From Chitinophagales bacterium (GTDB taxonomy: Bacteria > Bacteroidota > Bacteroidia > Chitinophagales > S012-47), in assembly GCA_015487695.1 (NCBI GenBank), contig WFPF01000021.1, positions 1 through 64,000 of the forward strand: a DNA stretch of 64,000 bases, in the 5' to 3' direction. Positions 2,816 to 55,884 of this stretch are shown piece by piece. The notes beneath the pieces are model-generated. The model was given only the letters and a program-made list of their open reading frames with translations. It ran no database searches and was not told where the DNA came from. Made by a program: the position numbers and the translations under genes. The stretch's first letter is position 1. Each line of letters begins with the position of its first letter.

Positions 2816-3826
2816 ATGAACAAGGACGAGATCTCGCAAATTCTTTTGAATCAGGCTTTCCCGGATACGGGAAAACACCTCGAAATGATCGAAACCCACA
2901 TCTCATGGGTCATCCTCAGCGATCACTTTGCCTTTAAAATAAAAAAGCCGGTCAAATATTCATTTTTGGACTTCTCTACGCAGGAACTTCGCAGGAAGTA
3001 CTGCTACAATGAAGTCGCACTCAACAGACGTCTTTCGCCCGATATCTATCTCGGGGTCATTGAAATCCGGTCGGACGGGGAATCTGCCACAATAGGAGAC
3101 GGCCCGGGAGAAGTCATTGACTATGCGGTTCAGATGAAACGTGTACGCACCAATGCCCGCATGGACCTCATGTTGATTCGAAAAAAAGTGAAGCGCGATC
3201 ATGTAGATCGCATCGCCCGCACCCTCGTAGATTTTCATCAAACGACCGAGGTCATTCACAAGAAAATCGAGAAGGAAAAAATTATAGGGGACTTTAATGA
3301 TCTTCAAAGTGTAAAACCCTTCCTCCGCGAAAAACTGGGCAATGTGGCTGTCAACCTCATCGACCGCTCACTGGAATGTGCCGGCAAGTTTGTTCACCGC
3401 TTCGGAGACTTGATGCAGCTTCGCTCGGACCAGGGCTTTGTGCGCGATGGCCATGGCGACCTGCACACAGGAAATATTTTCCTTCTCTCGAGGCCGGTCA
3501 TCTTTGACTGCATTGAGTTCAACGATGATTTCCGTCAGATTGACGTGCTCGATGAGGTCGCCTTTCTATGTATGGACCTTGAGCGTTTCGGCAGGAGGGA
3601 TCTGAGCCATGCTTTTCTTGAAAAATACCTTGCCGAAACCCACGTGCTCCGCAATGAGGCCGAAGGGCGCCTTTTCCTTTTCTTTAAACTCTACCGGGCC
3701 AACGTAAAGGCCAAGATACAAGCTATCAAAGCTCAAAATGCTTCATCCGGGCGGGCCATGAAAAAACACCTCGTCAGTGCCGACATTTACCTGCATCTGA
3801 TGTCCGATTATCTGGCGGTGCTCTGA
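2816..3826 (+). CDS. Aminoglycoside phosphotransferase family protein (COG2187-like)
   Basis: Kinase-like motifs HGDLHTGNIF and VIFDCIEFNDDFRQIDVLDEVAFLCMDLE. Confidence 0.85.
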   Translation: MNKDEISQILLNQAFPDTGKHLEMIETHISWVILSDHFAFKIKKPVKYSFLDFSTQELRRKYCYNEVALNRRLSPDIYLGVIEIRSDGESATIGDGPGEVIDYAVQMKRVRTNARMDLMLIRKKVKRDHVDRIARTLVDFHQTTEVIHKKIEKEKIIGDFNDLQSVKPFLREKLGNVAVNLIDRSLECAGKFVHRFGDLMQLRSDQGFVRDGHGDLHTGNIFLLSRPVIFDCIEFNDDFRQIDVLDEVAFLCMDLERFGRRDLSHAFLEKYLAETHVLRNEAEGRLFLFFKLYRANVKAKIQAIKAQNASSGRAMKKHLVSADIYLHLMSDYLAVL

Positions 3827-4578
3827 ACACTTACCCTCCCGGCCAACTCTTCGGCAATAAGCGGCAGGCTCTTTTCAAGTTCTTCGTAGCTATCTATGAT
3901 AAAATACTCTTCCTGATACCTTTCCTTGATATAGGGGGTCTTCAGAATTTGTCTTACATCATAGCGATGCCTGGGCAAATCGGCCTGAAGGCAATAATCG
4001 CTCTCCCCGTTTGATGACAAAATGCCCGCTCCGTAGATCTTCAGCGCTCCTTTCTCTCTTATCAGGCCAAACTCCACGGTATACCAATAGATACGCGAAA
4101 GCAATTCCACGGCTTCCGGATTTTCAATCCAACGGAAGGCAATGTGGCTCAACCCCTCCAGGAAAGAAGAAAAATCCTGATTCGCCAGCAGGGGCACATG
4201 CGCAAATACATCGTGAAACATGTCCGGCTCTTCGAGATAATCGAGCTGGTCCATGCTGCGAAGCCAGGTGCTTGCCGGAAAGAAGCGTCCGCGAAGCATT
4301 TCGAAAAAAGTGCGGTTGTCGACAATTCCGGGCACTCCCCTCAGGCGCCAACCCGTAAGTTTTTCCAGCCGCTTGTTCACTTCATTGAAATCGGGGATAC
4401 AGGTCTCCTGAAACCCCACAAGATCAAGGCCGTTTAAAAACGCGGCCGAAGCTTTGTTGGGCAGCTTTTTCATCTGCCGCCTGTACAATATCTGCCATAC
4501 GCTGTGATCTGCGACACCGTATGCCGCATAGTCCTGCTTTAGCTCCCGGATGCCTTCAATGGTCTTCATTTCTTCCAT
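3808..4578 (-). CDS. phhA: Phenylalanine-4-hydroxylase
   Basis: Aromatic amino acid hydroxylase signature PDMFHDVFAHVPLLANQDFSSF, plus YWYTVEFGLI and YGAGILSSNGE. Confidence 0.95.
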   Translation of the reverse strand: MEEMKTIEGIRELKQDYAAYGVADHSVWQILYRRQMKKLPNKASAAFLNGLDLVGFQETCIPDFNEVNKRLEKLTGWRLRGVPGIVDNRTFFEMLRGRFFPASTWLRSMDQLDYLEEPDMFHDVFAHVPLLANQDFSSFLEGLSHIAFRWIENPEAVELLSRIYWYTVEFGLIREKGALKIYGAGILSSNGESDYCLQADLPRHRYDVRQILKTPYIKERYQEEYFIIDSYEELEKSLPLIAEELAGRVSVQSTAR

Positions 4579-4600
4579 CTTTTTATTGGTTTTTATAAAT

Positions 4601-4633
4601 AAAAAAACCCGGCTTCGAATGCTCGAAGCCGGG
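4601..4633 (-). terminator. Intrinsic terminator in the 5' leader of phhA (candidate attenuator)
   Basis: Minus-strand CCCGGCTTCGA-GCAT-TCGAAGCCGGG followed by TTTTTTT: 11-bp perfect stem, 4-nt loop, about 23 nt upstream of the phhA start. Confidence 0.9.
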
Positions 4634-4658
4634 TGCTCATTTCTTTCAAAATATTACA

Positions 4659-4724
4659 CTACGATCCTGCTCCGAGTCTGGCCGGGTTCAGATAATAGTA
4701 ATAATAATTGCTGCAATTGATCAT
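4659..4724 (-). CDS. Putative Tyr-rich leader peptide MINCSNYYYYYLNPARLGAGS
   Basis: ATG ATC AAT TGC AGC AAT TAT TAT TAC TAT TAT CTG AAC CCG GCC AGA CTC GGA GCA GGA TCG TAG read on the minus strand; lies between the SDR gene and the phhA attenuator terminator. Confidence 0.8.
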   Translation of the reverse strand: MINCSNYYYYYLNPARLGAGS

Positions 4725-4764
4725 TTCAGGGCTAAAACTATGCATTCCCTTTCAGTTTCGGAAA

Positions 4765-55697: not shown

Positions 55698-55730
55698 TGT
55701 TGAAATTTGTTCTTTCAATTTTTGCCCAAA

Positions 55731-55811
55731 CACACCGGGGTGTCTGCCAATGGCAGGCTGAGATGATACCCGTAGAACCTGATGCAGTTCATACTGCCGT
55801 AGGAAAGTGTG
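55731..55811 (+). promoter_or_regulatory. TPP riboswitch (THI box)
   Basis: cacac-CGGGGTGTC..GGCTGAGATGATACCC..GAACCTGATGCAGTTCATACTGCCGTAGGAAA-gtgtg; conserved CUGAGA, ACCUGA and GUAGGAA motifs with closing P1. Confidence 0.95.
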
Positions 55812-55884
55812 ACCCACACCCTTCTGCGCTTTATTCTCTCTCCGGAGTGTTTGCGGATTTCGATCATCTGTAAAAACCGGAATT

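Follow-up and report, generated by a model that had tools for sequence, protein, structure and literature searches.

A short tyrosine-rich open reading frame and an intrinsic terminator upstream of phhA were found, on comparative sequence grounds, very probably to form a ribosome-mediated transcription attenuator by which phhA is regulated according to the charging of Tyr-tRNA. Support came from the anatomy of the leader, its conservation, specific complementarity between its parts, stem covariation and promoter placement. Attenuation had been proposed in an initial annotation of the same DNA, and the comparison across phhA loci bore this reading out. The window (the whole stretch of DNA analysed, 64,000 nt) carries the leader and phhA on its minus strand.

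Leader, terminator and phhA in the window

Features were placed as follows, in window positions.

3808-4578, minus strand: phhA, phenylalanine 4-hydroxylase, 256 aa, ATG at 4578; Pfam PF00351 (Biopterin_H), 3.3e-46
4601-4634, minus strand: intrinsic terminator, 12-bp stem, GCAU loop and T7 run; from folding, terminator scan and stem covariation
4629-4622, minus strand: antiterminator 3' strand GCUUCGAG, overlapping the 5' arm of the terminator
4676-4669, minus strand: antiterminator 5' strand (segment 2) CUCGGAGC, beginning ~15 nt past the last Tyr codon
4724-4659, minus strand: leader ORF MINCSNYYYYYLNPARLGAGS, 21 aa, stop UAG at 4661-4659; Tyr-run ORFs homologous to it precede phhA at 35 further loci
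4706-4692, minus strand: five proposed regulatory Tyr codons, TAT TAT TAC TAT TAT, read in the leader ORF
4733-4740, minus strand: probable promoter -7 element TAGTTTTA (consensus TAnnTTTG), predicted start ~4728
4761-4764, minus strand: probable promoter -33 element TTTC (consensus TTTG), 20-nt spacer to the -7 box

The 21-aa minus-strand ORF with five consecutive Tyr codons was present base for base where the initial annotation had placed it, and the alternative pairing that it had described, between CUCGGAGC (4676-4669) and GCUUCGAG (4629-4622), showed the claimed complementarity. An alternative in-frame ATG at 4745 gives a 28-aa ORF; the 21-aa reading was preferred because the probable -7 box (4740-4733) lies downstream of that ATG. 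The GC-rich hairpin with its U7 tract upstream of phhA, ACCCGGCTTCGA-GCAT-TCGAAGCCGGGT (4634-4607, minus strand; T run 4607-4601), was likewise confirmed, with 12 pairs when the outer A-U is counted, and was the top terminator-like site within the 15 kb scanned. Its position directly 5' of phhA, also claimed at the outset, was secured by the Biopterin_H match and the ATG at 4578; phhA is apparently monocistronic on the ORF map and the next gene is convergent. End-product codons in a short ORF and a predicted terminator before the structural gene, both marks of an attenuator, are thus in place.

The 147-nt leader folded with z = -4.4 against dinucleotide shuffles. Stabilities of the antiterminator and terminator were comparable in the window leader (-19.5 and -22.5 kcal/mol). 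Attenuators may carry a protector (1:2) hairpin that sequesters segment 2 while the leader is untranslated; in the minimum free energy fold of this single leader, the Tyr codons were paired with RNA around the stop codon. When the 64-kb window was scanned for short ORFs with at least four identical codons in a row followed by a terminator, only the phhA leader was found; a second line from the scan was the same DNA in another frame. Elsewhere in the 2.77-Mb genome, (TAY)4 occurred at seven further places; each was inside an open frame longer than 200 codons, and none was followed by a terminator.

Distribution of the leader across Bacteroidota

Sampling of phhA loci covered relatives, 395 genomes of the class and a species-wide genome collection. 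A Tyr-run short ORF and a terminator lay upstream of phhA in at least 36 Bacteroidota loci, the window included, which represent many families and share a common order of parts: Bacteroidota-type promoter, Tyr-run ORF, antiterminator segment, intrinsic terminator, phhA. Conserved Tyr-run ORFs in related phhA leaders, a check suggested together with the original claim, were thus found at 35 other loci. Within the order and class, a Tyr-rich short ORF and a strong terminator lay directly upstream in 24 of 82 phhA loci, 23 detected by the scanner and one (MNTQHNNYYNYYPVPLEPAGTALLR, L230) by a covariance model; 12 further loci came from the species collection, where carriers included Roseivirga, Fulvivirga, Marivirga, Hymenobacter busanensis, Solirubrum and marine bacterium AO1-C. 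The leader peptides were otherwise very different (e.g., MNFTHNTYYYYYQAPKGIGNGSVMHMM, MKRQNTYYYYHLILNKN, MNSKYYYYYYYRITPFGVGVVCS). In the leader alignment, positions 1 and 2 of the Tyr codons were nearly constant and the third alternated between T and C.

Specificity was assessed with a strict rule (at least 3 Tyr codons, strong terminator within 100 nt) applied to both strands of the loci in hand, and no match fell outside phhA upstream regions. A class-wide search with the pattern (TAY)4-N40-70-CCSGDTTC returned, among matches with a short Tyr ORF and a terminator, already known phhA leaders only. Three scanner hits (L008, L114 and a second L125 frame) were discarded as false positives, being on the wrong strand or Phe/Trp-rich chance ORFs. 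No leader was seen in any of the nine pseudomonadotal phhA loci examined. The trait required at least 12 changes on the phhA tree and is therefore patchy, repeatedly gained or lost. Many phhA genes lack both the Tyr run and the terminator, a pattern that the initial annotation had counted against attenuation, but the parts co-occur where the leader is present.

Pairing and covariation

A ribosome leaves RNA free from ~12 nt beyond the codons on which it stalls. The antiterminator segment begins ~12-16 nt past the last Tyr codon across loci. For the swap test, a 12-nt window was slid along each leader and its duplex energy computed with the terminator 5' arm of its own locus and with those of other loci. 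Energy peaked at offset +12, where the sliding window spans +12 to +24 nt (own arm -10.3, swapped arms -7.7 kcal/mol), and only at offsets +6 to +15 did the own arm pair better than swapped arms. Summed across 30 non-redundant loci, own-arm pairing reached -364 kcal/mol, whereas permuted arms averaged -279 (sd 12), and 0 of 20,000 permutations were as good; this permutation is conservative because relatedness improves the swapped arms. Changed yet complementary pairs were observed across loci (AGAACCGA/CCGGTTCA, AGGGCTGT/CCGGCCCA, AGAATCGGC/CCCGATTCA, CTCGGAGC/GCTTCGAG). Own-arm pairing was no better than swapped pairing in several loci (L021, L047, L052).

Covariation of both stems had also been suggested as a check. 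For the terminator the result was positive: among 28 aligned leaders, 93% of cells were paired and both-side changes occurred in 7 of 10 pairs (0 of 500 shuffles). For the antiterminator it was positive by the own-arm permutation and only marginal by alignment covariation, with 14 of 500 shuffles reaching the score on the MAFFT alignment. The weakness of the latter was attributed to MAFFT not keeping the pairing register, and the swap permutation was used instead. A mutually exclusive antiterminator that would be exposed by a stall at the Tyr codons is thus indicated by own-arm specificity, with marginal covariation. In most loci the leader stop codon lies 15-48 nt past the Tyr run, and therefore a terminating ribosome would be expected to overlie the antiterminator segment, wholly or in part.

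Promoter and 5' end

Promoters were scored against the model TTTG-N19-22-TAnnTTTG, which the window promoter matched at 8 of 10 positions, with a predicted transcription start at ~4728, 4 nt upstream of the leader ATG. The Bacteroidota consensus TAnnTTTG has been placed at -12 to -5 in a Flavobacterium psychrophilum transcriptome report (PMC9723704). A score of at least 9/10 just upstream of the leader ATG was obtained for 46% of homologous leaders versus 2% of shuffles, and the -7 box often ended 4-8 nt before the ATG. From this position, a 5'UTR of ~0-12 nt is predicted for the leader mRNA wherever a promoter match exists; the value for the window is ~4 nt. Initiation upstream of the leader ORF, as expected of an attenuator, is thus predicted from promoter enrichment.

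Tyrosine supply

TyrA (PF02153) was not found in the host genome (98.7% complete), with 14 of 14 control genomes positive. Because no TyrA is recognisable there, phhA is probably the host's route to Tyr, and the end-product logic originally put forward (Tyr starvation inducing Tyr synthesis) is strengthened. Phenylalanine hydroxylase is usually viewed as a catabolic enzyme. Termination at abundant Tyr would be in keeping with a biosynthetic rather than a catabolic role of phhA. Genetic support for phhA as a Tyr biosynthesis route exists in the Bacteroidota species Echinicola vietnamensis (PMC7311316). The TyrA-less host genome also encodes a 4-hydroxyphenylpyruvate dioxygenase (G000:C63:2551-3615), and Tyr made by PhhA may also feed homogentisate in this host.

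A strong TyrA match was present in 1 of 23 scanner-positive leader genomes versus 18 of 57 leaderless phhA genomes (Fisher p = 0.009, kinship ignored); independent pairs on the phylogeny are too few, and the anticorrelation is not established once phylogeny is considered. Weak TyrA matches in some leader genomes were set aside, their N-termini resembling, by eye, pyrroline-5-carboxylate reductase or related Rossmann proteins. The leader was absent from most sampled phhA genes, including some in genomes likewise lacking TyrA.

Leaders for other amino acids

The 395 genomes were searched with a covariance model built from the phhA leaders. The phhA leaders ranked top, and weaker matches showed the same architecture with other codons before matching biosynthetic genes: TTIITIITT before aspartokinase (L227), NIISNLIIVI before ilvD (L231), IIIIIII before the acetolactate synthase small subunit (ilvN-like; L234), HHYHHH before hisG (L236), LLLTIILVVLVIII (Leu/Ile/Val) before ilvE (L239), and YFTFFYFYF before DAHP synthase with tyrA ~5.5 kb downstream (L233, L240). 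Two other matches, L237 and L238, were weak, resembled ordinary terminators and were rejected.

The Phe/Tyr-rich leaders (MLITAAIYFTFFYFYFRSQNRIGAVYC...) with a terminator before DAHP synthase lie at G185:C6:458590-458700 (minus strand; L233) and G154:C1:199514-199627 (minus strand; L240), with a further one at G323:C39:255729-255841; these are in TyrA-bearing genomes. At L240, a -7 box TACATTTG ends 4 nt before the ATG. Separately, an MKFRTTKNWWWACETS leader with a terminator at L027:333-432, before a trpE-like ORF (471-1613), was read as a Trp leader; it gave no Rfam RF01692 match in a permissive scan.

Whether these leaders share a compact, nearly leaderless attenuator design across Bacteroidota, serving Tyr (phhA), Phe/Tyr (the DAHP synthase-tyrA region), Thr/Ile, Ile/Val, His and Trp, is judged evenly balanced. 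The traits of such a design might be a -7 box 4-8 nt from the leader ATG and a leader ORF whose end encodes the antiterminator. If it holds phylum-wide, tyrosine would have in the phhA leader its first leader peptide specific to it alone, and presence of this leader would point to lineages that have exchanged TyrA for phenylalanine hydroxylase as their biosynthetic route.

Proposed mechanism and alternatives

We infer ribosome stalling, readthrough and the sense of the response as follows. Transcription would start a few nt before the leader ATG (at the ATG in some relatives), with immediate ribosome loading. When charged Tyr-tRNA is scarce, the ribosome would stall on the Tyr codons, leaving RNA from ~+12 nt free to capture the 5' arm of the terminator; polymerase would then continue into phhA, and Tyr would be made from Phe. 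When Tyr is plentiful, the ribosome would reach the stop codon and cover the antiterminator segment, so that the terminator hairpin could form and transcription would end ~23 nt before phhA.

TnaC-like stalling, triggered by the nascent peptide or by binding of a ligand (Tyr or Phe) and not by codon-level readout of tRNA charging, is improbable. Tyr runs might stall in the exit tunnel, and residues past the run recur in subgroups (e.g., PSG.GTGVY, GxGNG), but these C-terminal recurrences coincide with the antiterminator RNA segment, conservation across loci extends to the Tyr codons but not to the residues flanking the run, and the codons of the His, Ile/Val and Thr leaders fit the pathway served by the downstream gene, as expected under codon sensing. 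Slightly less credit is given to a sensor of general translation slowdown or of Phe starvation, in which the Tyr codons would serve merely as a weak sensor: Phe codons are absent or rare in most leaders, where runs of 3-7 Tyr codons dominate, even though Phe is the substrate of PhhA and the Phe-Tyr-Phe leader aroR of Corynebacterium glutamicum is reported to respond to Phe, not Tyr (PMC11802643). That the hairpin, ~130 nt downstream of the stop codon (4765) of an SDR gene on the same strand, terminates that upstream gene and the Tyr ORF is a chance reading is scarcely credible and is contradicted by the comparison across loci: such an ORF and terminator also precede phhA at 35 or more other loci, with unrelated sequence further upstream in many of them, a probable Bacteroidota promoter separates the SDR gene from the leader ORF, and ORF-hairpin spacing and specific complementarity are conserved.

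Relation to known systems

No Rfam family reached its gathering threshold in the window leader, and permissive E-value scans of this leader and 19 other loci gave sub-threshold matches only; scores for Thr_leader, MicC and similar families were dismissed as looking like generic terminator matches. No T-box was found by Rfam, the sole gathering-level match in the window being a TPP riboswitch (RF00059, 68.9 bits, 55726-55823, plus strand).

Ribosome-mediated attenuators control the proteobacterial pheA/pheST (pheL, pheM), trp, his, ilv, leu and thr operons. Like the phhA leader, these combine end-product codons in a leader ORF, alternative antiterminator/terminator pairing and a biosynthetic target. 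The phhA leader differs in its Tyr codons, its phenylalanine hydroxylase target and its Bacteroidota host, and also in a 5'UTR of ~0-12 nt where a promoter match was found and an antiterminator segment that overlaps the end of the ORF. We know of no pure Tyr leader among attenuators of the proteobacterial type. Tyr T-box riboswitches of Firmicutes read Tyr-tRNA charging by direct tRNA binding, with no leader ORF; as in the mode proposed for the phhA leader, charging is read through a terminator/antiterminator choice. The Bacteroid-trp RNA (RF01692), which from its name we take to be a trp attenuator, is also a Bacteroidota leader, with Trp in place of Tyr, and had no match at the phhA loci scanned. 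It has been described as a cis-regulatory leader and listed as not a riboswitch (Weinberg et al., 2010, PMC2864571). The C. glutamicum aroR leader before aroF (PMC11802643) shares aromatic codons and aromatic amino acid genes with the phhA leader, but is actinobacterial and has a different target. In F. psychrophilum, 'strong clues' for leader peptide attenuation before amino acid operons were reported, in a main text that mentions neither phhA nor tyrosine (PMC9723704). Amino-acid leader attenuators are therefore already known in Bacteroidota, from RF01692 (PMC2864571) and the F. psychrophilum transcriptome (PMC9723704).

The literature search covered open-access work and gave no description of a Tyr leader or of phhA attenuation. 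The finding would add tyrosine, and an enzyme mostly seen as catabolic, to the range of ribosome-mediated attenuation, and a Tyr leader constitutes regulatory evidence for a biosynthetic phhA in the bacteria that bear it. With the searchable phhA-leader model, further amino-acid leaders come to light in Bacteroidota, where translation is initiated without Shine-Dalgarno sequences. Set against these systems, the Tyr/phhA attenuator is likely new: its mechanism class is known, and its amino acid (Tyr), its target (phhA) and its nearly leaderless leader ORF would be new.
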